Source: Arachis hypogaea (Eukaryota > Streptophyta > Magnoliopsida > Fabales > Fabaceae). Taken from it: 64,000 nucleotides of DNA. Under the pieces are notes generated by a model. The model saw nothing but the letters and a program-made list of their open reading frames with translations, did not search any database and was not told where the DNA came from. The DNA lies in assembly GCF_003086295.3 (NCBI RefSeq), contig NC_092053.1, positions 118,750,445 to 118,814,444 of the forward strand, in the 5' to 3' direction. A program made the translations under genes and the position numbers. Shown one piece after another: positions 1,975 through 56,864 of this stretch (the first letter of the stretch is position 1; each line of letters begins with the position of its first letter).

Positions 1975-3389
1975 AAGATTAAACGCACCAGGTGGTAAAC
2001 AAAAAAGCAAGAATTTTTTTTAAACTAAAAAGTCAAAAATAAATAAAAAATAGAAAAAAGTAATTAAGAATTTCGAAAAAAATTAGAAAGAAAGGGGTGT
2101 AAAATTTTTCAAAATTCAAAAAGTAAGAGAAAATACTAGAGAAATACCAAACTTAAAATTTGAAATTAAATGAAAGTAAACTAACTAAAACAAAATTCAA
2201 AAATCAATAAAAAGATAATTAAGGTATAAATCGAAAATTAAAAAGGATAAACCAGATAAAATTCAAAAATCAAAAGGAAAGGTAATTAAACAAAAACTAT
2301 TACGAGACACCAAACTTTTAAAATTAAAATAGGATAAAGCAACTAATTAACTAACAAGTTTTTGAAATTAAAAATGAAATTTTCAAAAATTAGAGAAGAA
2401 AAAGTCAAATCAAGATTTTGAAATTCAATTTTTGAAAGAAAAAGTAAAGAAATACCAAACTTAAAATTTAAAACAAGATGAAGCAAACAATTAATTAAAA
2501 ATATTTGAAAATCAAGATAGAAGATTTGGTTTTTAAAAAAAAAATTCGAAAATTAAAAGGAAAATGTCAAATAAAGATCTTGAATTTCAAAATTACAGAA
2601 AGAAAAACTAAAGAAACTCTAAACTTTGAAATTTGAATTTAAAATATGGAAAAGATGAGATAAGATATCAAAGTTTGAAATTTAAAAAAAAAAAGATAAA
2701 GATTAAAGATCAAGAAAGATAAACAAGATATGATTTGAAAATTTAAAAAAAAATTGATTAAAAAAAGAAAAAAAAGATTTGAAATTTTTGAAATTTAAAA
2801 AGAAAAAAATATTAAAAGACACCAAACTTAAAATTTGAAATTAAATAAAGATAAGATAACTTAAAACAAAATTTTGAAAATAAAGAGAAAGATAAGTAAG
2901 ATAAGTACGAAAATTTAAGGAAAATAAATAAACTAGTAACCAAAAATTAAAAAGAAAATCAATATACAATCAAGACAAAATCGAAAATCAAGAGAAAGTT
3001 GAGAATTAAGAAAAAGATAAATAAGATAAAGATCAAAAATCAAGATATTCGAGAATTAAAAAGAGAATTAATTAAAAGAAAAACTAACGGGACACGAAAC
3101 TTAAAATTTAAAATTAAATCAAAATAGGACAACAACAAAAATTCGAAAATTAAAAAAAAGAAAGATAAACAATATTAATTATAAAAATTTAAAGAAAAAA
3201 AACTAAAAGAACACCAAACTTAAAAATTTTGAAATCAAACAAGGAAAAACACCTAAGAAAATACGAACAAAAAGAAAGCAAACAAGAACAATTTTCAAAA
3301 ATCAAAAAGAAAAAGAAATTAAATGAAAACTAATAAAAATGCCTGATCTAAGCAGCAAGACAACCGGTAGTTGTCAATCACGAACAATT
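1975..3389. repeat. AT-rich, A-biased internal spacer with recurring 'accaaacttaaaattt' motif
   Basis: About 1.4 kb of strongly A-rich plus strand (T-rich on the element's coding strand) with no reading frame. A short phrase like accaaacttaaaatttgaaatt recurs irregularly near 2145, 2310, 2455, 2820 and 3210, so the spacer probably grew by slippage or local duplication. It lies between the primer-binding site and the ORF, where long untranslated leaders occur in Athila-type elements. Confidence 0.6.
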
Positions 3390-3405
3390 CCCGGCAACGG
3401 CGCCA
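3390..3405 (-). other. Primer-binding site, tRNA-Asp type
   Basis: On the minus strand this reads TGGCGCCGTTGCCGGG, complementary to the 3' end of plant tRNA-Asp. It lies a few bases inside the LTR edge and sets the orientation of the element. Confidence 0.85.
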
Positions 3406-3411
3406 AAAACT

Positions 3412-4974
3412 TGGTGCGCGAAATTAGAACTTGCACAACTTCACCGGCAAATGTACCGGGTCGTCCAAGTAATACCTCAGGTGAGTGAGGGTCGATCCCA
3501 TGAGAATTGTTGGATTGAGCAAGTAATAGTTATCTTGCTAGACTTAATCAGCCAAAATAGAAAAAGAGTGGTTGTTGTAGGCGCATAAAGCAAGGAAATA
3601 AAGAAAGCAGTGAAGAATTAGTGCAGAAACAATGGTGAGAAATAGTTAACGCCTTGGAGATGCTTATCTTTCTGGATTAATACCTCTTACTGACTATTGT
3701 AACAACGAATGATTCATTCTATGGCAAAGCTGTAAGTGATTAAACCCCAATTCCTTGAACCCTTCTAATCTCCTCTGATTCTCATCAAAAGCCAGGGTCA
3801 GTGGTCATTCGAATCGAATGAGGGTGAAGCTCAACGCAATTCAATCACTCTTAATCCTACTCAAAATATCACAGACAAGGTCAGATCTTTCGGATCAGAG
3901 AATGAAGCTCAGTATTCTAGCCTTAGCGCCATAGAAACCTCAATCACCCAAAGCTAACCGGATTTTATGTCACTTATCTAATTAGCCCAGGCAATTTACA
4001 ATTTAGGAGATATATTCTCAAGCTGTAATTCAATACTATCCGGTCAGGGACTCGCAAGAACTCATGTAGAAAAAGCGGTCATACTTTCGTTCCACCTCAG
4101 ATTTATTTAGATGAAGAACGACAATACATCATAGAATGGAATCAAACATATATGAAAATAGAAAAGTAATAGTATTAATCCATGGAAACAAGCAGAGCTC
4201 CTAACATTAACCAGGAGGTTTAGTTACTCATACTTTATAGAGAAAACAAAGAAGATCTGAAAATAATATTCCGTGTGTGTCTGAATCTCCCCTCCCGAGA
4301 GGCGTGATCCTCAGGAGAAAAGAAGTCCCTTATTTATAGTAAAAACCTCTAAGACTAAACCTACAAGATGTTAATTTTAAATTTAAAAGTTACAAAGATA
4401 AGACTAGATAAGCTAAGGAGTGCTAAAATCTACGTTGGGCCCACTTTGGTCATGTACTTCGGTCAAGCCTGGCGTTCAACTTGGAGTATGGGAGTTGAAC
4501 GCCTATAAGGGGGATGATCTCACTGTCTTCTGCTCCCTGGCTGGTGTTGAACGTCAGTTTTGGGCGTTCAACTTAGGAGGTTGGTCCTTCTTGGGCATTG
4601 AACTCCAGATGTGGACGTTCAACGCCAGTTGTGGGCAGTGTTTATAGAAAAGAAGTAAAAACTATTATATATTGCTGGAAAGCTCTAGAAGTTAGCTTTC
4701 CAACGTCGTTAAGTCCACGTCAATTGGATCTCTATAGCTCAAGATATGCTCATTCAAATGCACGAAGGTCAGGATTGACAACATCTGCTATCCTTTCTTC
4801 GTCTCTGAACAAGATTCTGCCAAATTCGCCTAAAAATCACCTAAAATAATAGAAATAACACAAAAACTCAAAGTAGCGTTCAAAGATGAATTTTGTACTA
4901 AAACATAGTAAAAATTAATAAAATCTAACTAAAAACACTTAGAAAATGCTAGTAAAAAAGGTATAAGATATTCA
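3412..4974 (-). repeat. 5' LTR of the Athila-like element
   Basis: About 1.56 kb. On the coding strand it begins near TGAATATC (4974) and ends at GCGCA next to the primer site. It contains repeated 'gcgttgaacgcc/gttcaac' phrases at 4440-4640 that recur at about 535-625 inside the element. A TATA-like TATAAATAAGG is on the minus strand at about 4328-4340. Exact borders are inferred because the partner LTR is outside the window. Confidence 0.65.
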
Positions 4975-5038: not shown

Positions 5039-5195
5039 CTTTGTCGATCTGGTAGTCTTGACCGAAACTCTTTGTGCTTTTTGTCTTGGATGTTTGGAAG
5101 TTTCAATGGTCTCGATTTTCCTCTTTTGAGTTCTTTTTGGGGATGCCTCAGTTCCTGGAGGAGTTTTAATCGAGGATTCCTTTATTTCGTCCAAT
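5039..5195 (-). pseudogene. PMD gene, C-terminal exon segment beyond the CACTA insertion
   Basis: On the minus strand the frame reads LDEIKESSIKTPP..., basic and Ser/Thr-rich, and stays open to a splice-donor-like AAAG|GTAAC at 5039. Joined at the AAT duplication to the segment at 11302-12823, the frame continues without a break, so this is the downstream part of the same exon. Disordered basic tails of this type are common at the C-terminus of plant PMD proteins. The Athila-like LTR begins ~65 bases further on, apparently in the intron. Confidence 0.6.
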
Positions 5196-5555
5196 CACTA
5201 CAAGAAAACACGTTTTTTGCTACGCTTTTAAAGCATGGCGAAAAGTTGAAAAAAGCGTAGCGATAGCTTTTCACCACGCTTTTGAAAGGGTCACAACTGC
5301 AAGGGTGCCGGTTGCTCTATCGCCACGCTTTTCGTGACCTATCGCCACGCTTTTTTTTGTCTCATTTTTCACAAGTTGCCACGTTTAAAAGCGTGGCCAT
5401 ATGTGGGAGATATGGCCACACTTTTGAAGTGCAGCAATACTAAGACATGGCCACGCTTTCAAAGCGTGGCAATAACGAGATATGGCCACGCTTTTAAAAA
5501 GCGTGGCGATAGCGAGAGATACGGCCACGCTTTAAAAGCGTGGCGATAGCCTTAT
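5196..5555. repeat. CACTA subterminal repeats, left end
   Basis: Many copies of a 10-18-bp palindromic unit around gccacgctttt/aaaagcgtggc, in both orientations, spaced 20-40 bp apart. They are matched by the array at 10945-11301 and probably form the transposase-binding region. Confidence 0.9.
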
Positions 5556-5812
5556 CAAATTAAAAAAAATTATCTTTTTTCTAACTTTACCTTCATCGCT
5601 GCACAATATAAATTTTCAATCTTTTTTATTACCAAACCTATAAATATAATATGCAATTTTTATAACAAGACAAATCAAACAGTAATTAGTGACATATAAT
5701 TTTTGCTATAATTGTTTTATACATTAAAAAAACTAATACTCAAATACAAAATAAATCTCGAGTTCAAATTCCAAAACTAAAAATTGAAGAAAAATACAGA
5801 ATTAATACAAAC

Positions 5813-5966
5813 TTAAACCCCAAGTCCTTTGCTATTCTTCCTTCCTCTAACCTTCTCAAACTTCCTTAGATCGTACATAAGGGTTGATATAGCTGTAAGG
5901 AACACCAGAAGCAGGACCCAAGTGTTTCATAGCTTCCCTGAAGTTCTTTGGGCCTCTAAGAAGGAC
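5813..5966 (-). pseudogene. RPL18: Captured last exon of 60S ribosomal protein L18 (eL18)
   Basis: After an AG acceptor (5967-5968) the minus strand reads [20 protein letters not shown], then [14 protein letters not shown], and after a small deletion that shifts the frame, [17 protein letters not shown] and a stop (TAA at 5813-5815). This follows the C-terminal third of eukaryotic RPL18 ([42 protein letters not shown]). Only this exon is present and it carries the frameshift, so it cannot make a ribosomal protein. It lies in the CACTA, downstream of and co-oriented with the SLP and EH fragments. Confidence 0.85.
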
Positions 5967-6303
5967 CTACATTCATGCAACAATATATAAACCATTTCCT
6001 AAAATTAACTTTTAAACACGAGAAGATCAATCTACATTTCTAGTATTTCTATAAAATATGAATCCGTAGAAAAGAAATCCATCAAACATATTCTTTTCAT
6101 ATCGATGCATACAATATATTTCTGGTAAAGAGACTTAAATGGAGATGAAGGTTTAACATTTAATAGGTGAAGCTATACTGTTATGAGTAAGAAATTGTCA
6201 TCTCCTTGACATTCAGTTATTTGAGACAATAACTTGAGTGGTTCATGAGTTTGTTTACAATGGCCAAAGTTGTGTCACATGGTCAAAGTTAAAAATGGCA
6301 AAC

Positions 6304-6694
6304 CTGAAATACAGCTCAACCTTTTGCCTTTGCCTGTTTATCCAATGATCGCAACAAGGACAAGATAGCAATTTCTTCTTCATCTGGATCTAGTACATCT
6401 CCAACTTGAATCAACACCTAGAACAAGAAACAAAAATAAACGTCCACAATGTTAAAGTGATAAATCTTAAACCAAAACCTTACAACTACTTTATAACTTC
6501 ATATTCTGATTCTATGCACATTGACAAAAGAGACTAGTGAATAAATTAAAATTAAAACTAAAAGCTATCAGTTTCTAAAAACAGGACACGTACCGTTTCT
6601 CCACCAGTCCATAAGTCTTGACCATCAGAGCTCAATACACCAGCCATTTGAAGTGCATATCTAGCCTGCTTAAGATCTCCATGTAGATCTTCAA
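6304..6694 (-). pseudogene. Captured exons of a Shewanella-like protein phosphatase (SLP-type calcineurin-like phosphoesterase)
   Basis: Two minus-strand exons with GT-AG borders. Exon 1 (6594-6694) encodes EDLHGDLKQARYALQMAGV and continues LSSDGQDLWTGGET. Exon 2 (6304-6417) encodes VLIQVGDVLDPDEEEIAILS, then LLRSLDKQAKAK and AVFQ. The order matches chloroplast SLP phosphatases, where GDLHGDL and GDVLDRG are metal-binding motifs. Here GDLHG has become EDLHG and DRG has become DPD, and GGAVFQ has a TGA stop (G*AVFQ). The catalytic metal site is thus damaged and later exons are absent. The intron is retained, so capture was from genomic DNA. Confidence 0.85.
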
Positions 6695-7254
6695 CTATTA
6701 AAGAAAAATTGGTTTTAGTGAGATGCATAACAATAGAAAAACTTGTAACGAAGTTGAACATTATCTCTAAAGCTAATTAACAAGAAGACACTCATAAGCA
6801 GGTTAATAGAATCAATCAGTGAAAAACATCCCCATCCACTGAAACTTTCACTTTGACATTGAGAATTTCATACTAAAGTTCCACCATACAAGGCAATCAA
6901 ATTAGAAGAACATAATAACAATTATCTTTTGTAGATTGCAAATAAATGAAGAACATAATACTAGATTAATAACATTGATAATTTTTTTTCTCTTTGGTGT
7001 AGATTGCAAATAAATGAAGAACAGCAAAGGTCCTTGTAGCAGCAGGGAAGAAAGTATTAGGACACAGAATGAGATGACTGAGTAATAATTATAACAGTTA
7101 GAAAGTTGATCAAAGTAGTTGAATATTTTTTCTAATTGGTATTAAAAATTTCATTGATCAAGTGTTATGTTCAATAGAAGCATGCAAACTGAATTTGGTG
7201 GATAATATGTTGAATCAATTTGGATCATAATTTTTCAGGTGCAGAGACATTTGA

Positions 7255-7470
7255 AGCTTAAAATTTAAGCATAAGGAAAGTACTTGCAATCATAACACAT
7301 TCAACAAAAATGATATTAAAGCTTAAAATTGAAGCATAAGGAAAGTACTTGCAATCATAACACATTCAACAAAAATGATATTAAGCTCAATCTGTCATAT
7401 TCTTTCAAGCTTAAAAGCTTAATCTGTCATGTTCTATTAAGCTTAAAAGCTCAATCTGTCATGTTCTATT
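7255..7470. repeat. Short tandem duplications inside the CACTA
   Basis: A ~64-bp unit (gcttaaaat...aaaaatgatatta) occurs twice head to tail at about 7257-7383. It is followed by three copies of a ~30-bp unit built on agcttaaaagctcaatctgt. Near-identity of the copies suggests recent slippage. Confidence 0.85.
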
Positions 7471-8567
7471 CTATTCGATAATTCCATAACACCCAAAAAT
7501 AATATTAAGCAAACAAAATAAATCAATTCAACCAACACATTCAACACAACACAGCCACAACCAACTCATGCACTTTTAAAACATTCATATATTAAAAACT
7601 GTAATTTTTAAAAAAATTCAATTACAAAATTACAAAAATTATAGAAACTTGTAGATTTATTAAACCTATATTTGATTAAGTATAAATTAGCAATTACATA
7701 AGAATAGCTTTAACGAATTATCATTCGAACAAAATTTACTTTAACAGATTTTGAAAGCATTTAGCAAAGAGTAATGCCATGAATCAATATGAAATTTGGT
7801 AGAACTCAACCAAAATTTCTCAAGATTCAAATAAAAATTCACTCTCAACTAGAATTACATAGCATGTCTTTGATCATCATAGTAGAAATCCACCTCACAA
7901 GAATTTAAAGCAAGGATATTGGATCTAATAATACAAAGTTTATTAATAAATCTAAATACAGGACATAGTTTTCTAAATCAAATTAAATATGTTGATTAGA
8001 AGGTGCTAATCATGTGTTGCGCAATAACTAAAAGCAATTTAGAGTTGAAAAGCCTGAAAGCAATTGGATATGAAAAGCTCCATAGTAGCTAAATAATGGA
8101 GATAGAAAGTTGCTAAGATTCCTCCCATAAACCTGAGTCCCAGGCTTTATAAATATACACATGGACATATATATCCCTATATATATAACTCTTAGCTAGA
8201 AATAATGGATCAGCAGCTATCTAGAAATTTTTATATTATTAAAATTTTCATATAGTCTCCTAGCTAGTCCAACCTAACAATACCTTTATTAATGATATAA
8301 AAGTAGAGAATTTTAATTCAAAATGCTAGATTTTAATTAATAACATCAAATACATGAACACTTTTGTATTTAAAAGAATTTCTTTAGAGCACTAATTGGA
8401 CTGAATTTTCTTTTTAAAACTTTTAATGCGAGAAACTGAGAATTATAGCAAAGTGAAAATAGCAAAGAAGCAGCAAAACAGAAAGTGAAAAAAAAACTAT
8501 AGAAATCCCTGTCAATAATTAAAAAATGAAATGAATATTTCATATGAAACGGTAACAAGATTGTTAC

Positions 8568-9527
8568 CTTTTTAGTTGACTTCAAAGAGAACCAACTACT
8601 TGAAGATGGTGATGGCTGCAATGGAGAACTACCTGCATTATTGCTAACTACTGAAACTGGATTTTCAAGACGAAAGAAGGAATATAGAAACCAAAGGAAT
8701 ACAAATGCCCATATTCAGTAATAGTGGGAATAAATCACCATTTGAATCAACTTCTTTTTCTTTATGCCTTTTCTTCTGGATAAACAAACCCAAATAGTAA
8801 GCACTTTTCCTAAATAAACATTAAGATATCAATTACCACAATAATACTAAAAGTTAGAAAATATTTACAGCTATTAATACATCCAAACCATCTATTGTGG
8901 GAGGTTTCAAGTTTTTTAGCTCAACTGAAAAACAGAAGTTCACAATCAACATATGCCAACAGCAACAAGAATTACCATCGTGAAGTCTTCAACTACTAAA
9001 AAAATTTATATTCAAACCAAACAATGGCAAACAAATCTAGAAGTACAAAAACTCACCACCACTAGAAAGAAGATCTTGTGTTATTGGTTGGCCGGATTGT
9101 GCCAAAGAAATGAGCTACATTTCAGAACACGTAAGCACTCTAGAAAGAGTTCAACATCACATTCCAACTAAAAAATAACATGAATTCACCTGCATAGCAA
9201 TGATGAACTCTACAAAACCAAGATATCTTTGTCGCTTTGAATCAGCGATAGCCCACACCTTCAATTTTGGCAAATCGGAGCACATAAATAAACAATTCAG
9301 TTAAAACTTGAGAAGAAATCAACTGTGATACATATCAGCTAAGCACAACTCCTACAAACAACTCAACCATTCATAGCCAGCCAGCATCTATATAATCAGA
9401 AGCTAGAGAGTTCAAAACTAATCAAATATAAAGCTGAAACTAACCACTATCATTAGAATCAATAATTGCAATGAAAAACAAAAAATACAAAACCTGCTTA
9501 AGATCCTGGCGAGACAAATAGAACATA
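8568..9527 (-). pseudogene. Captured exons of an EH-domain (EF-hand, endocytic) protein
   Basis: Six consecutive minus-strand exons, most with GT-AG borders: 9494-9527 (YLSRQDLKQ), 9190-9258 (VWAIADSKRQRYLGFVEF...AMQ), 9057-9114 (LISLAQSGQPITQDLLSSG), 8869-8924 (ELKNLKPPTIDGLDVLIA), 8739-8775 (KKRHKEKEVDSNG) and 8568-8656 (SPLQPSPSSSSWFSLKSTKK). The first three give the second half of an EH domain, in which a W-x-(L/I)-AD helix precedes an LGF-EF--AMQL-SLAQ EF-hand half. The rest matches the linker of plant EH proteins. The N-terminal half of the domain and the remainder of the gene were not found. The family call is confident; the particular paralogue is not. Confidence 0.75.
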
Positions 9528-10299
9528 CCTCAAAGTTGCACCTGCTAATACTTATATGGATAGTATAATTATACAAATAAATTCTGATAAACTGGGAATT
9601 GATGAAGCCACAGCTCCAGAACCATTCAAACTCACCTGCAATGTAAAATTACATTATTCTCGTTATTTAAGAGTTACTACTCTATTCGTAAATCTAATCA
9701 AGTTTTTTTAACTATACAAGAAATCAAAGATACATAGTATAATTCGAGTAGCATATGCAAAACTGTCAATACTTTAGTTTATATACGGATAACAAATTTA
9801 AACTTTTTGACATCAACAAGGACAGGGAAGCAGTACTCACTTCATGCACAACACAGACTATGATCTTTTGTCATTCAAAGTGTGAAATGAAAGTATCAAG
9901 TCAAGAAACAAAGATGACTATTCATTTAATATGGTATATTATATTTAATCATTCTGAATTTGTAACAAAATAGGTACTAATTAGCTACGAATGTAAACAA
10001 GGTGTTTGCTTTTCTTTATTCCAGGTTTTTCTGAACATTAAATTAAGAAAAATCCTAGCCAACCCTCAATAGTCAATATTATAATAGCTATGCAATTACA
10101 AGGCAGAGATGTAACCATGTTGCCCAAGTCAATTTGAATCTAAATTGTTTTTGTTTTTACTCTGTTGCTTTCAGATTTTATTAATGGCTATGAAAACGGG
10201 ATAAGTATAGCACCTCCTAATCAGAATTTCATGTAAGATATTCAAATTATTTGGTTACAAATAAAATTTAATCAAAAGACACTTACATAAGGACCATGA

Positions 10300-10900
10300 A
10301 ATTCCTACCACCACCTGCCCAGGGACCAACTCATGGCGAAGAAAGTGTTGATGGCCGAAGCAGAGCTTGCAACAGAGCACGACAAAGCAGCGACGATGAC
10401 AGAGCGCAACGACCTTGACGACAGAGCACGACAGAGCAGCGATATAACGGAGAGATAGAGAGGTCGATGGTGAGACCAGCCGTGAGAGAGGTGAGACTCA
10501 GTGAGCTTGAGGGTGAGAGTGGCGAGTGAAGAGAGAAGAAACTCAAAGGAGGTGTAGGGGTTCTTCGTCGTGGTTAGGGGTTATTCGACGGAGGCATTGC
10601 GAGCGCCGGCGACTGGCGACGTTCCTCGCAGAGTGCTATTAGGGGTTCTTCGTTGTGGTTAGGAGTTTTTTGATATGGGATTCTTTGTTGTGGTTAGGGG
10701 TTCTTCATGAGGCACAATGAAGAGAGAGTTAGGGTACAGTGAGGCACAATGAAGACAGCGTTAGGGTTAGCTAGGGTTAATCGTCCGGGTGTTCTTCATG
10801 GAGGGCTTTCAACTGAGCTAGGGCAATTGGAAGAAGGAGAAAGACTGGAAGAGTAGATGACTTTGTAATTGGAAGCTAGCTAGGGCAATTTTAACTTAGA
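10300..10900 (-). promoter_or_regulatory. Putative leader/promoter side of the CACTA transcription unit
   Basis: A GC-richer, purine-rich (plus-strand) stretch with repeated 'gacagagcacgac' and 'ggttcttcgttgtggttaggg' phrases. It lies between the right subterminal array and the captured exons, upstream of all of them on the minus strand. The position fits a 5' leader. No clear TATA box or start was assigned. Confidence 0.3.
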
Positions 10901-10944
10901 ATTTCGAAGCAAGGGATGACCTTGTAAAATTTTTTTTTTGGAAC

Positions 10945-11301
10945 TTTTTGGCAACGCTTTTGAAGCGTGCCAAAATAGTAATAAGAAACGGCCACGCTTT
11001 TAAAACGCTCCAGTAGCAAAATCCTGTCGCCATGCTTTGAAAGCGTACCTATTTCTCTCTATGGCTATGCTTTTTGAGCGTGGCAAAAAAAGCATGGCTA
11101 AATCTCGAATCAGTTGTCACCCTTGTAAAAGCGTGGCTGTTGATCCCTTTCGCCATACTTCTAAAGTGTAGCAAGGAAAAACGTAGCCAAATCTCTATTT
11201 AATCGCCTCCCTCAAAAAAGCGTGGCCATTGATCACTTTTGGCTACGCTTTTAAAGCGTAGCAAGAAAAAAGTGTGGCCATAGGCCTTTTTTCTTGTAGT
11301 G
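10945..11301. repeat. CACTA subterminal repeats, right end
   Basis: An array of gccacgctttt/aaaagcgtggc units ending in TTTTTTCTTGTAGTG, mirror of the left array. Several units here carry substitutions (catgcttt, tacgcttt). Confidence 0.9.
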
Positions 11302-12823
11302 AATGAGCGATTATATTGAGAATAATAATTTCTCCACCATTCGACAAAAGATTTGGTGACAAAGTCACTATGAACATAAGGAAGATGAGAGTAATGACTC
11401 CGATTCTTGTCACTAATATCGAGGCATCTTTTGATTTCCTCTTTCGATTTGAATTCGAAATGACAAAGAGATTTGCTTTTCGAGGAAAGGGAGACGGTAG
11501 AGCTTGTGAAAAATCCATTTGTCTTGCAACATAATGGGGGGCTTGAAGGGTCATCTTGAATTGTTCTTTTTTGTATTGAGGTATTTCTAACAGCAAGAAA
11601 AATAGCCCAACTTGCATTATTCAAAGTATTGTCATTATTGTCGGTAGGAAAAAGGAGGCGTTCAAACCAAGCTGGGCCACAATTTCGATATAGGAAAAGA
11701 GCAAACATCAGTTCTTCATTTCAAAAACTCTTACATAAATGAAGTATTGAAAAAACTACCCAAAAGAGTTCTTCAGTCGAAGTGGTGTCTTTAAAGTTTG
11801 GTTGGAGAGTGACCAATCGAAAACCTTCAATATGTTGCTTTTCCGAAGTAGTGATCCCAGCTCGCTTCATATGCTTTTCGAAAATGGCATTTAGCCAAAG
11901 TTGTAAAAGCCATAGGGGACCCCCTGCATTAATCAAAGACCTCTTTCGAAGGCAGTCGACTAGATGCCCCCAATTCGTCATATAGATTCCCTAAGATTAG
12001 TTTGGCCAAATTGAACTTATGGCCTTCAAGAAGTAGGGCAGCTAGAGGGATAAATAATTTCTGCATCTAGATACTTCTCGAGCAAAAGATGATAGCATTC
12101 AGCCAGTAATACAAAAAGGCCATGCTTTCGTCATCGGTGACAGGACTGTCTTCTTGACCCATATTATGTTTGATAAAATCACCATAAGAAATTTTCTAAA
12201 TTATCTTGTAAGATTTGGTAGGTTTTGTGTCAAATGTAGCTATAGAATTGCTCATCGAGACCCTAGTAATAGCAGCTACATCGAACAGTGTGGGTCCAAC
12301 CATTCCACAAGGGAAATGAAAATTGTTTTTGATTTTATTCCAAAAGTAGAGTGCAGCACCATTCATCCAATGATGGGTAGTTGGATTGAAATGAGAAAGG
12401 CGAAGAAGTTTGTGAATACCTTGCGCTTTCCAAGCCTCACCTTTTACTGGTTCGAGTTGTTGTAGCAAGAAAATCATCATTTTTGAAAGTGATTTTGGGA
12501 TTATTTCTGAATGGTTTTTTGCCCTCGATGAAAGGTGCTATGAAGAAGAGTTGTTTGATAAGCAAGTCTTCCCCTTCGACACTTGGGAAGATTTGGGCAT
12601 TCTTCTTGGATTGCTCAGATGTTTGCAATGGACTAACAAAGCAACAAGTATCGTCTTCCGCGACAAGGAGCCTTTTGTCATTTGGTACACTCTCAACGTC
12701 CTTAATGACAGTGTCATCGAATTGAGATAGTATTTTCAAGTCATATTAGTCGAAAGTCTCCGTCATAACTTGTTTACCTTTGTCTTGGGTAGTTGAAGTT
12801 CCTGGAACTAAGGAAGAAGCCAT
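11302..12823 (-). pseudogene. Plant mobile domain (PMD, aminotransferase-like) gene, degenerate
   Basis: The start ATG is at 12821-12823 (MASSLVPGTSTTQDKGKQVM). The chain runs through MKILSQFDDTVIKDVESVPN, a segment at 12200-12480 with HHWMNGAALYFWNKIK and FPCGMVGPTLFDVAAIT, then NAGGPLWLLQLWLNAIFEKH at 11880-11950 and CGPAWFERLLFP near 11660. The 'W-N...F-FP-G...TLFDVAAITGL' and 'GPLWLLQLWLNA' blocks are diagnostic of the PMD family (MAIN-like), found in plant genes and in MULE and LTR elements. Damage: stop TAA shortly after the start, frameshifts near 12470 and 11980, a stop near 12070. At 11301/11302 it is cut by the CACTA; the remainder is at 5039-5195. Whether this PMD was a host gene or a TE gene is unknown. 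Confidence 0.8.
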
Positions 12824-18756: not shown

Positions 18757-20447
18757 TGATGGCTAAACATTATTGGATTAAAAGCCAATTGTATGTGTGA
18801 TTTGTTTTGTTTAGTGTGTAGAAAATAAATTGAATTGAAACTAGCCTAAGAAACAATGATACCAATCAAATAGCATCTAGCACACACAAACACACATAAT
18901 GGCCCAAGAATATATTTACTACCATCACAAATCCTTCCTATCAGCAACAAAACAAGCCTCTAACAAAATGAAAGAAAGAAAGAAATTGGCCCAAGTTCAT
19001 CACAAGTCCAACCGGTGGTCCATATCAAATCCAATTTTCTCACTTAGTTTCTAATTAAGTGATTCATTTTTTATTTCATTTGAACCAATTCACATTACTA
19101 CCGAACCAAAACACTCTTCACCAAAACCAAACTCTTTCTTCTCTCTCTTCTCTTTTTTTTCACATCACCCACATAAAGACTCTGAAGTAAAAAGGAAAGA
19201 AAAAGGAAGCTTTGTGCTAGGGCACAATTGAAGAACGAAAAAAAAGTTTTCGATTTCAAGCAAGAAAAGAGAAGGTCAAACAGGCTAGGACAAAAGGCAA
19301 TATCACATCCAAAGGCAAATCACAGAAATAGAGTTTCTACATTTTTTCTTCGTTGAAGATTGCTGAAGAAATCCTCTGTGTTACAAGCACTAATTTGGAA
19401 AAATAAAGAAATCAAAGATGATGAAGCTCTGCTGTGAATCAACGCTCAAAAATCAAACTTGGAGCCAAAGTAAAAAGACGCGGTCCAGATTCAATAAGCA
19501 AGATGAAAAAGGTTGAAAGAGAAGATGGAAGGTATGGTTGTATGTTTGATTCGGTCACTGCTTCTACCTCGTCTCTCCTCTGTCACGCTGTTGCTATATC
19601 TGATTTTGGGAGAAGAAGTCAAACAAGGTGCTAAAGCAAGTTTCAAGCCTAGAAAGCTTCATTCCTCAATTAAAGGGATGAACGGCCAAGAATTGAAGCA
19701 AGAAGTGAGAGCACAACATTTGGATTCCCATAGCTCACTGAGCTGTTTATTCTTTTCCTTCATTATTTTCATTGAGTGTCTCATTATCTCAGTCTAGTCT
19801 TTCTATGTTTCAATGTTAAAAGGTAAAATGGTGAGGTTTACATGTAAAGCTATTGAGTGGAAAAAAAGTAGAGAGTTAGACTTGAAGAAAAAGCCTAAGT
19901 TTATCTCAGAAATTCTTTATTAATTTTTCTGTTTTGTTGTCATGATCCTGAGAGGATTTTCTTACAAGTTGGGTTAGCACTTTGCTGTTGAAAGCTAGGG
20001 TGAGTTCCTAGTCAAGTCTAGTTTGGTTTAGAAACTGGATTTGTCGCAGATAGGATTTGTTAGAATCCTAAGGAGAATTGGTGATTATAATTCTATTGAA
20101 AGATAGTGAAATTCCATCATTGTTGTGATGGAGACTGGATGTAGGCTACATTGGAGTGAGTAATTGAACTAGGATATATCTGTGTGTCATTTCCCTTTCT
20201 CTTCTCTATTTTTAGTTCTGCACTAGAGGAGACAAAACAAAAGTATCTCCTGATTCTACTATCCAGCAATACTTCACTATAATACACCTTGCACATAAAT
20301 ATGTTTGACTCTTAATGCGTCATGAGACAAAATCAAAGTATCCCCTATTTTATACTCAAAATTTCTTAATAGAATTCATGGTTTGAAAGCAAAGTTAAAA
20401 GGAGGCTAAGATTCAACCCCCCTTCTATTAGCCACTGATAACCATCA
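18757..20447 (+). repeat. Copia LTR 1 (long copy)
   Basis: Starts near TGATGGCTAAACATT and ends ...GATAACCATCA, directly before the Met-initiator type primer site. About 1.69 kb. It includes pyrimidine-rich leader-like sequence (19130-19160) and the terminal 190 bp that recurs at 22375-22561 and 24482-24667. The start is inferred. Confidence 0.6.
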
Positions 20448-20449
20448 AT

Positions 20450-20461
20450 TGATATAAAAGC
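20450..20461 (+). other. Primer-binding site, tRNA-iMet type (degenerate)
   Basis: TGATATAAAAGC stands where TGGTATCAGAGC is expected, two bases after the LTR end. The second unit has TGGTATAAAAGC at 22564-22575. Confidence 0.75.
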
Positions 20462-20519
20462 TTGGTCTCAAAAAGATCAAGCTTCACAGATTGGAGAAAA
20501 GATCCTGATAGCAAATAAC

Positions 20520-22064
20520 ATGGGTTCCAACATAGTGACTTATACTCTGACAGAAGGACAATCCAACAACAGACCTCCATTCTTCAATAGAAAAAATTAC
20601 AACTACTGAAAAGAAAGAATGAAGATCTTTGTTCAATCAGTAGATTACAACCTTTGGAAGATAATCATGAATGGTCCTTAAATCCCTACAAAAACTGGCG
20701 TTGATGGTGTTGTTACTCCCAAAATCGAAGTAGAGTGGAATGAAGATGACTAGAAAAAGGTGGAACTCAATGCCAAGGCTGTCAACATGTTGAACTGTGC
20801 AATCAGTTTCAAGAAATACTGGAAGGTTTCAAGATGCAAAACAACAAAGAAAATCGGAGATAAGCTCTAGGTTACACATGAGGGCACCACATAAATAAAG
20901 GAAACAATGATTGACATGCTGAGCAAAGAGTATGAGATGTTTTCTACAAAGGAAGGAGAATCAATTGATGACATATTTGAGAGATTCTCTATCATCATTA
21001 ATAGCTTAGATGCTATAGGAATTACTCACTCTGAACAAGTTTTGGTGAGAAAAATCTTGAGAAGTCTGACTAAAGAGTGAGAAACTATGGCTACTGTGAT
21101 CTCTGAAAGCAGTAACCTAAGTCAAATGACCTATGATGAGTTGAGAGAAAAGTTACTAGCATATGAAATCACTCACATAAAGAATGATACAAAAAATAAA
21201 GGAATGGCTCTTAAATCTTATACTGAATCATTGGATGATGAATCCAGTAACTGTTTATCAGATGACGAGTTTGTGTTTTTCGTTAGAAAACTTAGAAGAA
21301 TGATGAGACTCAAAAAAAGAAGTAGAAAAGGCAACTCAAAGGAACCAAAGAATGACCTAAGCAAGGTCATTTGCCACAACTGCAGAGAGGCTGGACACTA
21401 CAAATATGACTGTCCGAAGCTGAAGAAAGAAGATAAGTCTCGAAAGGACAAGAAGAAGGGACTTATGGCTTCTTGGAAAGATTTGTAAAATGACACTGAT
21501 GATGATGATGAATCTGACCACAACTCTCAAGCATGCTTGATGGCCAACCACAGCTACCATAATGAGGTAATCTTTCTTGAACCTTCTAATGAAGAACTCA
21601 ATCTTATGATTCAGTAATTAAGAGAAGCCGAAACCACTATTGATCTTGTTGAAGAAAACAAGCGGCTTAAATCTGGAATCAAAAGTCTTGATGAAAAGCA
21701 TCCTGTTGTTTCCTATTTGAATTACTTTAAAGAGAATAAAAGGTTGCATAAAGTAATTAAGGGTCTAAATCAAGACTTAGCTAAGTTTTCTCAAAGTTCT
21801 AAAAATTTAGACAAATTGTTCACTAGTCAAAGACCTCTTTTTGAAAAGGCTGGGTTGGGGTATCATGAAAAACCTAGACTTATTTTTGAAAAATCATGCT
21901 TTGAAAATGAAGCCTCAACTTCCAAAGACAAAAGATTTCAAATCCCAAATCACTTTAAAAAAATCAACAAGTAACAAATTCTGTCGTATATACAATCGGG
22001 TTGGTCATTTGCCTATTCAATGTTTTATTTTTGAAAAAAAATTGGTGATAAAGTTTACAAAGTA
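20520..22064 (+). pseudogene. gag: Copia gag, unit A
   Basis: From ATG at 20520: MGSNIVTYTLTEGQSNNRPP..., then a UBN2-type gag with KEYEMFSTKEGESIDDIFER and VLVRKILRSLTKE. A CCHC zinc knuckle at about 21370-21415 (CHNCREAGHYKYDC) binds nucleic acid in the particle. A Glu/Lys-rich coiled tail (FKENKRLHKVIKGLNQDLAK) and a second knuckle-like CRIYNRVGHLPIQC follow. The lineage resembles SIRE/Maximus. Several tryptophan codons are TGA stops (for example NYNY*KERMKIF) and there are frameshifts, so it is dead. Unit B (22622-24170) is a close copy. Confidence 0.85.
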
Positions 22065-22194
22065 ATTGGCAAATACAATGCTCTTGGGTAACCGAGAAGG
22101 TTTAACATTAAAGGATCCAAAATTATTTTGGATACCTAAGGTCACTTAAAGGCTTTGTGTAGTTTTTCCTAGCATCCAAGAAGAAGAATGACAT

Positions 22195-22374
22195 GTGGTA
22201 CTTGGATAGTGGATGCTCTAGGCACATGACCAGAAAGCCCACAATTCTTCATCAAGCTTGATAAATACTATAGAGGCTTTGTGACTTTTGGTGACAATAG
22301 AAAAAGAAAGATAGTGGCCATAGATAAAGTGGGTAAGTGTTTCTCCACATTTATTAATGATTGTATTTTTAGTT
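22195..22374 (+). pseudogene. Copia protease start, unit A, truncated
   Basis: Reads WYLDSGCSRHMT, the retropepsin active-site neighbourhood (DSG) of copia pol, then DNRKRKIVAIDKVGK in a shifted frame. It breaks off within the protease/GAG-pre-integrase region, at the joint with the LTR 3' end. No integrase, reverse transcriptase or RNase H follows. Confidence 0.75.
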
Positions 22375-22561
22375 GATGTATTTTTAGTTCACTGTAATAC
22401 ACATTGCACATAAATCTGTTTGACTCCCAATACGTCAAGAGACAAAATTAAAGTATCCCCTATTCTATACTCAAAATTTCTTAACAGAATTCAAGGTTTG
22501 AAAGCAAAGTTAAAAGGAGGCTAAGATTTAACCCCCTTCTATTAGCCACTGATAACCATCA
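22375..22561 (+). repeat. Copia LTR 2, 3' ~190 bp only
   Basis: Matches the last ~190 bp of LTR 1 (ttcactgtaatacac... to ataaccatca) and is followed by the second primer site. The joint to the protease fragment carries the repeated phrase tgtatttttagtt, a likely microhomology scar. Confidence 0.85.
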
Positions 22562-22621
22562 ATTGGTATAAAAGCTTGGTCTCAAAAAGATCAAGCTTCA
22601 CAGATTGGAGAAAAGATCATG

Positions 22622-24170
22622 ATGGCAAACAACATGGGTTCCAACATAGTGGCTTACACTCTGACAGAAGGACAATCCAACAACAGACCTCCATTCTTCA
22701 ATAGAAAAAATTACAATTACTGAAAAGAAAGAATGAAGATCTTTGTTCAATCAGTAGATTACAACCTTTGGAAGATAATCATGAATGGTCCTTAAATCCC
22801 TACAAAAACTGGCGCTGATGGTGTTGTTACTCCCAAAACCGAAGTAGAGTGGAATGAAGATGACAAGAAAAAGGTTGAGCCAAGGCTGTCAACATGTTAA
22901 ACTGTGCAATCAGCTTCGAAAAATACTGGAAGGTTTCAAGATGCAAAACAACAAAGAAAATCTGGGATAAGCTCTAGGTTACACATGAGGACACCACACA
23001 AGTAAAGGAAACAATGATTGACATGCTGAGCAAAGAGTATGAGATATTTTCTACGAAAGAAGGAGAATCAATTGATGACATGTTTGAGAGATTCTCTATC
23101 ATCATTAATAGCTTAGATGGTATAGAAATTACTCACTCTGAACAAGTTCTGGTGAGGAAAGTCTTGAGAAGCCTGACTAAAGAGTGAGAAACTAAGGCTA
23201 CTGTGATCTCTGAAAGCAGTAACCTAAGTCAAATGATCTATGATGAGCTGAGAGAAAAGTTACTAGCATTGAAATCACTCACATAAAGAATGATACAAAA
23301 AAGAAAGGAATTACTCTTAAATCTTGTACTGAATCATTGGATTATGAATCCAGTGACTGTTTATCAGATGACGAGTTTGTGTTTTTTGCTAGAAAATTTA
23401 GAAGAATGATGAGACTCAAGAGAAGAAGTAGAGGAGACAGCTCAAAGGAACCAAAGAATGACCTAAGCAAGGTCATTTGCCACAACTGCAGAGAGGCTGG
23501 ACACTACAAATATGACTGTCCGAAGCTGAAGAAAGAAGATAAGTCTCGAAAGGACAAGAAGAAGGGACTTATGGCTTCTTGAAAAGATTTGTAAAATGAC
23601 ACTGATGATGATGATGAATCTGACCACAAATCTCAAGCATGCTTGATGGCCAACCACAGCCACCATAATGAGGTAATCTTTCTTGAACCTTCTAATGAAG
23701 AACTCAATCTTATGATTCAGTAATTAAGAGAAGCCGAAACCACTGTTGATCTTGTTGAAGAAAACAAGCTGCTTAAATCTGGAATCAAAAGTCTTGATGA
23801 AAAGCATCCTGTTGTTGCCTATTTGAATTGCTTTAAAGAGAATGAAATGTTGCATAAAGTAATTAAGGGTCTAAATCAAGACTTAGCTAAGTTTTCTCAA
23901 AGTTCTGAAAATTTAGACAAATTGTTCACTAGTCAAAGACCTCTTTTTGAAAAGGTTGGGTTGGAGTATCATGAAAAATCTAAACTTGTTTTTGAAAAAT
24001 CATGCTTTGAAAATGAAGCCTCAACTTCCAAAGACAAAAGATTTCAAATCCCAAATCACTTTAAAAAAATCAACAAGTAACAAATTCTGTCATATATATA
24101 ATCGGGTTGGTCATTTGCCTATTCAATGTTTTATTTTTGAAAAAAAATTGGTGATAAAGTTTACAAAGTA
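22622..24170 (+). pseudogene. gag: Copia gag, unit B
   Basis: A near copy of unit A displaced by ~2.11 kb. It has the same start region (MANNMGSNIV), the CHNCREAGHYKYDC zinc knuckle at about 23476-23520 and the same tail. Many of the same stops are shared (for example the TGA in NYNY*KE), so the inactivation predates the duplication. Private differences include small deletions near 22875 and 23270. Confidence 0.85.
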
Positions 24171-24298
24171 ATTGGCAAATACAATGCTCTTGGGTAACCG
24201 AGAAGGTTTAACATTAAAGAATCCAAAATTATTTTGGATACCTAAGGTCACTTAAAGGCTTTGTGTAGTTTTGTCTAGCATCCAAGAAGAAGAATGAC

Positions 24299-24481
24299 AT
24301 GTGGTACTTGGATAGTGGATGCTCTAGACACATGACCAAAAAGTCCACATTCTTCATCAAGCTTGATAAATACTATAGAGGCTTTGTGACTTTTGGTGAC
24401 AATAGAAAAAGAAAGATAGTGGCCATAGATAAAGTGGGTAAGTGTTTCTCCACATTTATTAATGATTGTATTTTTAGTTGA
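24299..24481 (+). pseudogene. Copia protease start, unit B, truncated
   Basis: Open frame MWYLDSGCSRHMTKKSTFF...FGDNRKRKIVAIDKVGKC with the DSG retropepsin motif. It stops at the same LTR joint as unit A. Confidence 0.78.
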
Positions 24482-24667
24482 TGTATTTTTAGTTCACTGT
24501 AATACACATTGCACATAAATATGTTTGACTCCCAATACGTCAAGAGACAAAATTAAAATATCTCCTATTTTCTATTCAAAGTTTCTTAACAGAATTCAAA
24601 GTTTGAAAGCAAAATTAAAAGGAGGTCAAGATTCAACCCCTCTTCTCTTAGCCACCGATAACCATTA
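24482..24667 (+). repeat. Copia LTR 3, 3' ~190 bp only
   Basis: Third copy of the LTR end (ttcactgtaatacac...gataaccatta). It closes the LTR-gag-LTR-gag-LTR array. Its terminal CA has decayed to TA. Confidence 0.85.
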
Positions 24668-26056: not shown

Positions 26057-26302
26057 TAAGAGTAAGCTTGTTTAGAAAGTTTTAAAAATTATTTTTTTTA
26101 ATTTTTAATTTATAAAAAATAATAATATTAATATTTAGTGTATTTTTAAAATTAAATTGTAATGTTTTAAAAAATTATTTAAGTATTTATGAAAAAGTTA
26201 AAAAAATAAATTTTTTTATAATAATTTTTTTATCATATTTATTTAAAAATAAATACTTTTAGAATTAAAAAATCAAATACAAAATAACTTATTTATAAGT
26301 TA

Positions 26303-26835
26303 TGTTATGTAGGTAACTTGAGATAGGTGGGTTGGGCTTGTAAGATTGGCCCAAATGCAGATAGAAGATGGTCTCCGACTTGTACGCGTTCGAGAGCCGC
26401 GCGTCCGAGTTGTGTATGTGAAGGAATGAGGGAGTGGTACTTGCAATGACACTCCGATACCTAAGTTAGCAAGGGAGCAAGCAGGTTTAGAAAGTATTGG
26501 AACTTAGTTTTATTTGAGTGGGTTAGTGTATTTATAGTGGTGATCCAATAACCACCGTTCGAGTAGTTCCACTTCTGAAGGTGGATAACCGTCATTTTAT
26601 CTTTGGGTTGTTGAATATTGCTTCTGGAAGGGGATAAGAGATTTTAGGAGGCAGTTACTTATTTGAATAAGTGCTATCTGCCAGCTCATCTCGAGCGCAA
26701 CCTCTTTGGGGAGGGGCTCACGTTGAACCCGACCTCTTTCCTGGGAGGTCGGTTAGGTGGTGAAGGCCAACCTTTTGATTTGGCCTTTTTGGCTTACTTG
26801 GACCTGGATCATAGTGTGGGGTCATGGTATGAACA
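26303..26835 (-). repeat. 3' LTR of the Tat element
   Basis: Pairs with 37458-37989. Contains a minus-strand TATAAATAC near 26527-26535. It borders the polypurine tract at 26836-26850. Confidence 0.95.
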
Positions 26836-37456: not shown

Positions 37457-37457
37457 A

Positions 37458-37989
37458 TGTTACGTCGGTAACCTGAGATAGGTGGGTTAGGCTTGTAAGA
37501 TTGGCCCAAATGCAGATGGAAGATGGTCTCCGACTTGTACGCGTTCGAGAGCCGCTGTCCGAGTTGTGTATGTGAAGGAATGAGGGGGTGGTACCTGCAA
37601 TGACACTCCGATGCCTAAGTTAGCAAGGGGCAAACAGGTTTAGAAAGTATTGGAACTTAGTTTTACCTGAGTGGTTCAGTATATTTATAGTGGTGATCCA
37701 ATAACCACCGTTGGAGTAGTTTCACTTCTGAAGGTAGATAACCGTCCCTTTATCTTTGAGTTGTTGAGATATTGCTTCTGGAAGGGGATGAGAGATTTTA
37801 GGGGGCAGTTACTTATTTGAATAAGTGCTATCTGCCAGCTCATCTCGAGCCCGACCTCTTTGGGGAGGGGCTCACGTTAAACCCGACCTCTTTCCTGGGA
37901 GGTCGGTTAGGTGGTGAAGGCCAACCTTTGGATTGGACCTTTTTGGCTTACTTAGGCCTGAACCATAGTGTGGGGTCAAGGTATGAACA
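37458..37989 (-). repeat. 5' LTR of the Tat element
   Basis: Pairs with 26303-26835. The minus-strand TATAAATAT at 37681-37689 is the likely transcription promoter. Confidence 0.95.
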
Positions 37990-46299: not shown

Positions 46300-46306
46300 T
46301 TGACAA

Positions 46307-47657
46307 GTAGAGTATCGTTTTTGTCCCCAACGTTTGAGGTAAGTCTTAAAATTGTCTCCAACATTTGAATCGTCCTATTTAAGTCCCTAACGTTTCAAAA
46401 TTGACTCAATGTTGTCCTGCCGTTAAGAATCTGTTATCGGAATTGACGGTGGGACAAAATTGAGACGATTTTAAAACGTTAAGGACTTAAATAGGACGAA
46501 AATGTTGGGGACAAAAACGATACATGGAAATACATTTTAATTTTATCCTTTACTAATATCAATCTTTTACTGTACATAGTTATTCAATTATTTTTTAATC
46601 ACATTTAAGTAAATTACACTTAATCACATTACTTTCCAGGGGAGGTTGGTGCAACAATGCCTCTGATTGTTTGGATCGCAGGGACACTCGCTTAGGTTCA
46701 TCTAAGAAAATGGATCAGACAGCTTCCTTTTCTGGATATTTAAGCAACAAGCAAAAATTTAACCCAGGTATATTCTTCACTGGTCACAATTTTGATTCTT
46801 TTTCCTCATTAACACAAACATTTTTTAATTTTATGGATCTTAAAAGTGCTGCATATTTCAGATTTCTACAACTGGAACAGAATCAAGGTTTGATACTGTG
46901 ATGATTCATTGTTTACCGGTGACGTCGAAGCAGTTGATCCTATAAGTATTGCAACATTGAAAATTCTGTTCTAAGTGATAAGATTTGTTATTTTGTAATT
47001 TCCATTCTGATGAAATTTTCACAACATGATAAATAAATTAGAAAACCAATTTGCACCACAGAAGAGGAAGAATTTTCGTTGCTGTCATTGAAGACTTGCT
47101 GGCAAAAGGAATGAGAAATGCTCAAAATGTAAGTGACATTATTTATTTATGTTCTAAATGATTTCTACTCAACATGAAATGTTTGTAAAATAACTAGAAT
47201 CACATTACTTTATTGTATATATATAATTTTTTCCCACAAGTTTATGTATTAGTCATTCTACAAATATTTTATGATGAGTAAAAATTTTTAAGAGTAAAAT
47301 TATAAAAAAATAAATTTATTTAGAATAAAATTAATGTGATTAAGTGTAGTTTACTTAGATGTGATTAAAAAATAATTGAATAACTATGTACCGTAAAAAA
47401 TGATATTATTGAAGGATACAATTAAAATTTATTTCTATGTAACGTTTTTGTCCCCAACGTGTTCGTCCTATTTAAGTCCCTAATGTTTCAAAATTGTCTC
47501 AATTTTGTCCTGCCGCCAATTCCGTTAACAGATTCCTAACGGCAGGACAACATTGAGTCAATTTTGAAATGTTACGAATTTAAATAGGACGATTCAAACA
47601 TTAGGAACAACTTTGAGACTTACGCCAAACATTGGGGACAAAAACGATACTTTACTC
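46307..47657 (+). mobile_element. Pack-MULE-like element carrying a pectin acetylesterase fragment
   Basis: About 330-bp arms at 46307-46640 and about 47325-47657 are inverted copies. They start at gtatcgtttttgtccccaac and include 'gtcctatttaagtccctaacgtttc', 'cctgccgttaagaatctgtta' and the inner 'aattacacttaatcaca'. Each arm also folds on itself. Flanks share TTGACAA (46300-46306, 47658-47664), a worn remnant of a 9-bp duplication. Between the arms lie three host exons with introns (46640-47128). There is no transposase. Confidence 0.85.
46640..47128 (+). pseudogene. Captured exons of a pectin acetylesterase (PAE, CE13) gene
   Basis: Exon 1 (46640-46767): GGWCNNASDCLDRRDTRLGS, SKKMDQTASFSGYLSNKQKF, NP. 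Exon 2 (46862-46941): DFYNWNRIKV*YCDDSLFTG, DVEAVDP. Exon 3 (47042-47128): TNLHHRRGRIFVAVIEDLLA, KGMRNAQN, then GTAAGT. This follows plant PAE in order, a wall esterase that removes acetyl groups from pectin. Arg before YCD is a TGA stop and the exon 2 donor GTAAGT has become ATAAGT. The catalytic GCSAGG block would lie in the next exon and is absent. Introns are retained. Confidence 0.9.
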
Positions 47658-55313: not shown

Positions 55314-56342
55314 CACTATAAGAAAGTACCAAAATAGCGACTGAAAAAATTGGTTGCTAATAGCGACTGATTTAGCGACTGATACAGAATTTTCAGGACC
55401 AAATCAATATTGCTCACTAAATCGGTCGCTAAATTACATTCAGCGACCGATTTTAGCGACCAATAAATTCGGTCGCTAATTGCAACTGAATTAGCGACCG
55501 ATAAGTTTTAAATACAACTAAAATAAAATCGGTCACTAAAATCGATCACTATTTTTTTATTTAGTGATCGATTTAGCAACCAAAACAGAAATAATGTCTT
55601 TGGAACTGTTGGTCAAAAAAGCGGTCACTATTTTTATTTTAGCGACCGATTTTGCATCTGATAGTGAAATAGGGTGGACAACTGTTTGGTCGCTAATTCA
55701 ATCGCTAAATTGGTTGCTAATTGTTAATTTAGCGACTGATTTTAGTGACTAACATAATCTATCATTAATAGCCACCAAATTAATGACCGACTAGTTTTAT
55801 ACAACTAGAATATAAACCGTCGCCATTTTTTAATTTAGCGACCGAATTAGCAACCAAAACAAAAGAAGGAATGTGATTGGAACTCTTGGTCAAAAAATCG
55901 GTGCTATTTTTTAATTTAGCGACCGATTTTGCAACCGATTTATAGGTAAATAGAATAACGTGGTTGGTTACTAATTCAGTCGCTAAAGTTATGGTCATCA
56001 AATAGGTTGCTAATTTTAAATTAGCGACCGATTTTATAAATTAATCAGTCACAAAAGCAGTTGTTAAGTAAAAAAAAAGATGTTATCTAAATTACCCTCA
56101 CCAATCCTAAGTCGCCCACACCATTCTCATCTCCTCTAATCTTCTGCGCGCGTTGTCGTCTTTTTCACCGCCGTCTTCTACGCGCGTCTCGCCGCCGTCT
56201 CCTGAGGTCCTGTCGGCGTCGTCTTCTCCAGTATCAGCGCCATCTCCTGAGGTCTCCTCACCGTCTTCTTCCTCCTACAGAAACCGCCCCCTCACCTCCC
56301 ACCTCCTCCACTCGCTCCGGCCAGGTTCACACATTCATCCAC

Positions 56343-56391
<49 letters not shown>

Positions 56392-56864
56392 TTCGAATTC
56401 TTTTTCTAATTATCGCTTTTTGTCATTTACATTGAGGCCAGCTCACAGAGGAAGAAGCTTAGGCTCTTTCAAAGAGGTAAATAAAAATGCTCTTTCACTC
56501 AAATCAGATCTGTTTTCAGGTTTTTTTTTGTTCTCTATTTTTGATTTTTTCGTTCTATGATCTGATTTCTTCATTTTGATGGCTTTCAACGATTACTTCC
56601 TAAATCATGGCTTGACCGATGATAGCTGCAGTTTCAGTAATACAGCTGCTATTACTTCTTTGAACCCTAGTTAGTAAATAAAACCCCTCATTTATTTTTT
56701 TCTCCTATTTTTATCTTACTCTTTTGGATCAGAACTTCATGCAAGGTAGATTGGGTTCTATTCGTTATAGATTCGTTCGTGTGAATTCAGCTTATTTTGT
56801 TTTTAATTTGCTTAGAGTAAGATAAGATTAAATTAAATTAATGTCGAAATCTAAGGGAAAAAAG
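55314..56864 (+). mobile_element. CACTA terminus with TTAGCGACCGA repeats
   Basis: CACTATAAGAAAG at 55314 opens ~730 bp of direct and inverted copies of a tttagcgaccgatttt unit. A GC-rich, pyrimidine-rich leader (56100-56400) with a (CT)n run then leads to an AG/GT-bounded segment. This is the 5' side of a CACTA element, cut by the hAT at 56865. The opposite terminus was not found. Confidence 0.75.
56346..56386. repeat. (CT)n microsatellite
   Basis: About 20 CT units in the CACTA leader. Confidence 0.97.

Follow-up and report, generated by a model that had tools for sequence, protein, structure and literature searches.

The element and its cargo

The DNA analyzed here, a 64,000-nt stretch of the peanut (Arachis hypogaea) genome that we call the window (C18:118750445-118814444), contains a complete CACTA transposon of 6,106 bp with pieces of three host genes on its minus strand: an EH-domain ATPase (EHD1), an SLP-type phosphatase and the ribosomal protein RPL18 (eL18). 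The closest proteins to the window come from A. hypogaea and A. ipaensis; no relatives were confirmed in viral contigs. An earlier note, made from the letters of the sequence alone, had described a Pack-CACTA element with perfect termini and an AAT duplication, devoid of transposase and carrying these three pieces with their introns, and each part of that description was borne out (Table 1). The CACTA-beginning terminal inverted repeats (TIRs) are perfect over 13 bp, the target-site duplication is 3 bp long and subterminal repeats occur at both ends, as is characteristic of the CACTA superfamily. The exact 10-mers GCCACGCTTT and GCTACGCTTT are confined, within the window, to the two ends of the element. 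When the empty site was rebuilt by fusing the flanks at a single AAT, a 194-codon minus-strand frame ran uninterrupted across it, as predicted for a clean insertion. This frame has no Pfam match; it may resemble plant mobile-domain genes. A Pfam scan of all six frames of the element, in which the split EH and SLP exons likewise went undetected, found no transposase family and gave only RPL18 (26.7 bits, cut-off 28) and a sub-threshold Myb match; absence of a TNP2-type transposase is expected for a non-autonomous CACTA member.

Table 1. Features of the CACTA element, its cargo and the gene model derived from it (window positions)
Feature	Position	Strand	Description
Complete non-autonomous CACTA element, 6,106 bp	5196..11301		CACTACAAGAAAA TIR at both ends and AAT duplication
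Left TIR, 13 bp, CACTACAAGAAAA	5196..5208	+	perfect inverted match to the right TIR
Right TIR, 13 bp	11289..11301	-	exact complement of CACTACAAGAAAA
AAT target-site duplication	5193..5195 (left copy); 11302..11304 (right copy)		
Left subterminal repeats, GCCACGCTTTTAAAAGCGTGGC type	5214..5550		direct and inverted, clustered
Right subterminal repeats	10936..11282		GCCACGCTTTTAAAAGCGTGGC type, likewise direct and inverted and clustered; match right ends of sibling elements
Family core	5196..7833		common to L009, L010, L011 and the window element; 86-88% with gaps
RPL18 (eL18) piece	5628..5992	-	3' flank, last exon 5966-5813 (frameshifted), part of preceding intron
SLP-type phosphatase piece	5982..6818	-	exons 6694-6594 and 6417-6304 (the latter with an in-frame stop); introns kept
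Tandem repeats within family core	7254..7470		65 bp x2 and 32 bp x2.8
EHD1 (EH-domain ATPase) piece	8451..9526	-	exon end 9526-9494; exons 9258-9190, 9114-9057, 8924-8869, 8775-8739, 8632-8568; introns kept
Non-EHD1 stretch	9527..10290		initial part (9516-9660) recurs elsewhere in the genome as a dispersed repeat
GC-rich stretch adjoining right end	10290..10935		69%, weak match to one sibling, L034
P0006 gene model	5813..9526	-	exons 9526-9494, 9258-9190, 9114-9057, 8924-8889, 6694-6594, 6417-6321, 5892-5813

Loci resembling the parents of the cargo, whose existence the earlier note had anticipated, were found in the peanut genome (2.557 Gb, 440 contigs), on C17 and C7 for EHD1 and SLP and elsewhere for RPL18. 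The EH piece scored 24.5 bits against the Pfam EH domain (cut-off 22), and its top relatives are plant records of EH domain-containing protein 1, which identifies the source gene as an EHD-type ATPase. It is identical to a C17 locus (C17:2476255-2477333) in 1,029 of 1,081 alignment columns, with exons and introns collinear, and the match ends within an exon at 9526 and within an intron at 8451. A second EHD1 locus lies on C7 near 2.41 Mb and is presumably the homeolog of the C17 locus, at 2.48 Mb. The Arachis EHD1 isoform P0167 reads into an intron of the other exon chain; the element keeps this stretch with 1 of 24 residues different. The EH exon chain is wholly open and its GT-AG borders are intact.

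The SLP piece aligns with a C7 locus (C7:21259590 on) in 740 of 889 columns over 5982-6818, again with exons and introns collinear, and extends at least to 6818, where the compared source stretch ended; a second genomic match lies on C17, and the two copies are at C7:21.26 Mb and C17:24.94 Mb. Only a weak PDB similarity (E 0.0065) was seen, with the psychrophilic phosphatase 1v73 and two phosphatase entries like it; the 1v73-type phosphatases are presumably Shewanella namesakes of the SLP family. What we take to be the metal-binding motif reads DPD in the window copy, DRD in sibling-type models and DRG at the C7 locus. The RPL18 piece matches plant eL18 chains in the PDB (E 3.8e-17) and is identical in 327 of 372 columns (88%) to a genomic copy on C12; the best RPL18 copies lie on chromosomes other than C7 and C17. 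These two pieces abut, the RPL18 match and the SLP match having about 11 bases (5982-5992) in common. Position 8568 (a donor) and positions 6694 and 5966 (acceptors), which the earlier note had listed as points that spliced reads might join, proved to be GT/AG borders. We found nothing to support the idea that the pieces are inserted retrocopies of spliced mRNA instead of captured genomic DNA; it is refuted by the retained EHD1 and SLP introns, collinear with the source-like loci, and has next to no chance of being correct.

Further partial copies of the cargo are dispersed in the genome. Beyond the C17/C7 pair, partial EHD1 copies at 91-95% occur at C18:106546320, C10:90035468, C19:58267387, C17:61757385 and C19:149076904, and also at C13:3718119, C14:19974810, C12:91906452 and C12:112587533, with recurring boundaries (query 346-967, or 1-315 plus 416-579). 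Copies on C18, C10 and C19 share the upper boundary 9526; we considered that these reflect one capture and dropped the idea, as any EHD1-derived copy stops matching at the end of the EH piece. Partial SLP copies at C6:115748562, C16:142912496, C18:94958616 and C20:116351338 have one common internal deletion (query 255-364 joined to 760-991), which indicates that they are not spliced copies.

Sibling elements and the order of captures

A genome search with the left end gave 1,739 first-look candidates, of which 40 were scored, one being the window itself; the other 39 places matched at 76-85%. The best 27 of these 39, examined over up to 9.9 kb each, are referred to as siblings. Paired TIRs and a 3-bp duplication that agrees on both sides were present in 19 and, by this test, not found in the remaining eight (L012, L013, L020, L027, L031, L033, L034 and L035). 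DNA queries from the window detected the RPL18 piece in six siblings (L009-L013, and partially in L026) and SLP exons in three (L009, L010 and L011), each of which also has RPL18. The EH piece was detected in none of the 27, and the EH-bearing form is seen only in the window copy. Siblings L009, L010 and L011 share the family core and the right end with the window element and have duplications of their own (AAA, TGG and TTG, respectively), thus providing the multiple cargo-bearing copies by which Pack-CACTA elements are recognized. Similarity breaks off sharply at 7833/7834, where the window element enters its own 3.1-kb interior. Where L010 and L011 share sequence they are 99% alike, and their duplications differ, which suggests that the family moved recently. 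Of 330 candidates for the RPL18-SLP block 40 were scored, and the full block was found in six genome places including the window; four of these are complete elements and the other two are C11:10268038 and C14:59527752.

The three pieces differ in divergence. Mismatches to the nearest genomic copy number 97/837 for SLP and 36/363 for RPL18, compared with 45/1,074 (4.2%) for EH (Fisher p 1e-9 and 1e-4, respectively, versus EH). At the protein level 13 of 50 residues differ in RPL18 and 5 of 89 in EH (p 0.001), consistent with the DNA. RPL18 and SLP thus look like one older block, 10-12% from its nearest genomic copies, to which a younger EHD1 piece was added, and the cargo was gained in two rounds or more. 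With the first 365 bp set aside, 71 of 2,122 core sites (3.3%) distinguish the window element from L010. This distance does not differ from that between EH and its source (p 0.23); EH was therefore probably gained around the time the window copy split from its siblings, shortly before or after.

A single capture of all three pieces from neighboring genomic positions would fit their common strand, and would fit RPL18 and SLP abutting one another and co-occurring in siblings. A single orientation is weak evidence alone, with a chance of 1 in 4. On both C7 and C17 the nearest EHD1 and SLP copies are separated by 19-22 Mb, the best RPL18 copies map to other chromosomes, the divergences differ, and siblings have RPL18 and SLP without EH; the source-like loci and the siblings contradict a single capture, which we consider hardly credible. 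Of the several independent captures suggested in the earlier note, more than one event stands; RPL18 and SLP, however, travel together as one older block, and only EH is peculiar to the window copy in the comparison with the 27 siblings.

Other siblings add detail. L012 and L013 seemingly lack SLP exons, as if RPL18 had been gained before SLP. We dropped this reading and claim no order between the two. The matches of L012 and L013 cross the RPL18/SLP join, to 6295 and 6065, which suggests deletion derivatives, and the match of L014 ends at 5867; none of the three gives an RPL18-first order. L013 bears RPL18 between unequal flanks (TAA/CAA) and contains a nested Ty3-like long terminal repeat (LTR) retrotransposon, labeled Ty3 from its reading frames. 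In L026 an RPL18 piece at about 1042-1161 resembles peanut RPL18 (P0105) at 85% across 40 residues, closer than the window piece at 37/50, and is possibly a separate capture. The interior of L010 (reverse complement, about 3167-3683), and also of L009, L011 and L013, holds exons that start models P0004 and P0009, and a sub-threshold RPS31 match in the sibling interior hints at a further captured gene. L014 and L024 carry a piece similar to the beginning of P0180 (at 58% and 74%); EHD1 exon sequence is present in that model as well.

A chimeric gene model and the interpretation of the cargo

The NCBI peanut protein P0006 (157 aa) is an EH-SLP-RPL18 chimera, and the window yields 157 of its 157 residues from seven exons with GT-AG borders; the record stems from an assembly or place other than the C18 of the window. 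The chimera envisaged in the earlier note therefore exists as a predicted spliced model, but a coding chimera is not supported: at the native borders the join of 8568 to 6694 is out of phase and runs into a stop after 20 codons, the second SLP exon contains a stop and the RPL18 exon has a frameshift. P0006 evades one stop, one frameshift and one phase clash through splice sites at 8889, 6321 and 5892, which are cryptic and differ from the borders shown by homology. Across the four copies that share SLP and RPL18, codon positions 1, 2 and 3 are variable at 8/122, 9/123 and 5/123, versus 78/1904 outside exons; the codon-position contrasts (p 0.125 and 0.354) are not significant. We had considered coding constraint on the SLP-RPL18 frame and saw none, the codon positions varying alike; the pattern resembles that of unconstrained DNA, with no visible constraint in 22 variable exon columns, a number that could hide a weak one.

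These observations bear on a rival reading, in which a spliced EH-SLP-RPL18 transcript of the element is translated to give the product of model P0006 as a new chimeric protein. The exact recovery of P0006 from the window and the open EH chain speak for it, and chimeric splicing of such cargo is documented, in the available text, for the soybean element Tgm-Express1 (PMC1947982). However, joins made at the native borders break phase or are interrupted, three of the splice sites in the model are cryptic and sidestep the lesions by coincidence, none of the 27 siblings has EH and there is no third-position excess; we judge such a protein very improbable.

Related records in the databases have the same makeup. 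P0001-P0006 of Arachis have a fused transposon-cargo makeup and P0009 has the SLP part alone, the cargo in this group being of SLP or RPL18-SLP type. P0002 comes nearest to L009 (RPL18 exon 100%) and P0003 and P0004 to L011; L009 and L011 are complete CACTA elements. At their SLP and RPL18 exons, L010 and L011 agree with P0003/P0004 to 91.9-100%. Cargo-type Arachis records bear names such as hypothetical, ribosomal or calcineurin-like phosphoesterase, and the makeup of P0001-P0006 is a concrete annotation hazard.

Taken together, the data are best explained by a Pack-CACTA element (probability about 0.9): a non-autonomous peanut element, presumably moved in trans through its cis-acting ends, that acquired its cargo in stages from the genomic DNA of three host genes. 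The structure of the element, the source-like loci with collinear introns, the siblings with their own duplications, the older RPL18-SLP block and the younger EHD1 piece are demonstrated by the comparisons above. A TNP2-type transposase made elsewhere would mobilize the element through its TIRs and subterminal repeats, as siblings with different duplications suggest. The cargo may have been acquired by fusion of neighboring insertions or by aberrant repair. Such fusion has been proposed for Pack-CACTA cargo gain in the available portions of two papers (PMC8903248, PMC13317346), and it is compatible with ends held in common around a new interior. The element gave no direct trace of such fusion, and its ends show no hybrid origin. 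The ends do diverge more than the core, and we examined and rejected a hybrid origin of the two ends, a prediction of the fusion model: ends diverge likewise in the sibling pairs compared, and trees gave no fork above the set support. Once captured, the cargo would be passenger DNA, any transcript of it being non-coding or a target of silencing.

Several points weigh against this interpretation. The Pfam scan is blind to split exons, so small transposase remnants could remain in the element. The C12 copy used for RPL18 has a stop in its own exon and is possibly not the actual donor, so that the capture could look older than it is. The p of 0.23 would fit an EH gain on either side of the sibling split. 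The codon test is small, and the siblings are limited to the best 27 of 39 matches, from 40 scored of 1,739.

Transcription of the cargo mainly as non-coding RNA, feeding small RNAs that could target the element family and, more weakly, EHD1, SLP or RPL18, is possible, if on balance unlikely. The 95% identity to EHD1 over 1.1 kb and the strong foldback of the left subterminal repeats as single-stranded DNA (z = -9.4; equaled by 0 of 100 shuffles) are in its favor, and a review reports, in the part available, small RNAs from captured sequences in maize (PMC13317346). Differences between the window and L010 are mostly transitions at the left end (29:5, transitions to transversions, versus 48:23 in the core), an excess that may reflect methylation. 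Inverted subterminal repeats are, however, usual for CACTA ends, and the transition excess, absent from the right ends of L010-L011 and L009-L010, is no more than suggestive. A more specific version, to which we assign a low probability, has transcription starting from the right GC-rich end, which is sense for all three pieces, and the open EH chain (9526-8568) spliced to the SLP-RPL18 exons in a stable RNA that lowers EHD1 through small RNAs. If true, a single element would have tied endocytosis (EHD1) to its own silencing in a new regulatory connection.

Related elements and other features of the window

Multi-gene capture by CACTA elements, with introns and chimeric splicing, is already known, and the peanut element adds a case with clear staging. 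The comparisons that follow draw on the available parts of the papers cited. Tgm-Express1, of the soybean wp allele, holds five host-gene fragments; no fewer than 12 different transcripts were found, and 11 of them include its cassette exons (PMC1947982). Like the peanut element it is from a legume, has CACTA ends and, within 5.7 kb, combines intron-containing pieces of several unrelated host genes whose GT/AG borders are usable (PMC1947982). The cargo genes differ, however, and Tgm-Express1 lies in an intron of F3H, with chimeric transcripts detected by reverse-transcription polymerase chain reaction, whereas the peanut element interrupts an unnamed frame and has only a database gene model (PMC1947982). 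Pack-TYPE elements of maize often hold several loci, Pack-CACTA the most (PMC8903248); those of Arabidopsis, rice and maize belong to other hosts and another TIR family, and in peanut the staging, RPL18 and SLP and then EH, is read from individual siblings. The pvCACTA1 family of common bean is likewise a legume CACTA family with 3-bp duplications; its elements are small with TIRs of 145-158 bp, in contrast to 13 bp in peanut (PMC4938662). CACTA elements of Chenopodium also combine subterminal repeats with captured host-gene fragments, but there the fragments sit beside a transposase domain, of which none was found in the peanut element (PMC8978399). The peanut element is unnamed in the literature titles and abstract openings that we found. 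Its significance lies in staged capture with the earlier forms surviving, the RPL18-SLP block alone and then with EHD1 added.

The window contains further traces of CACTA elements. At 55314-56350 a second CACTA-type end, CACTATAAGAAA, is followed by subterminal repeats of the TAGCGACCGATTTT type and then by a C-rich stretch and a TC run; it has no exact partner in the window, and no CACTA transposase family was found in 55314-64000. A further exact CACTACAAGAAAA end lies at 62194, with different inner sequence and no partner end (with 2 or fewer mismatches) before 64000. Pieces of a hAT transposase (zf-BED, hAT RNase-H and dimerization domain) occur across two frames of the minus strand at 57766-59584. 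Repeats of other kinds include a tandem array at 20270-24665 whose period is 2.1 kb (some two units plus a partial third, 82-97% alike depending on the stretch), direct repeats at 26302-26835 and 37457-37989 that are 91-96% alike, 11.15 kb apart and resemble the LTRs of one element, and a long inverted repeat at 46306-46635 and 47328-47656 whose arms are 87-93% complementary.

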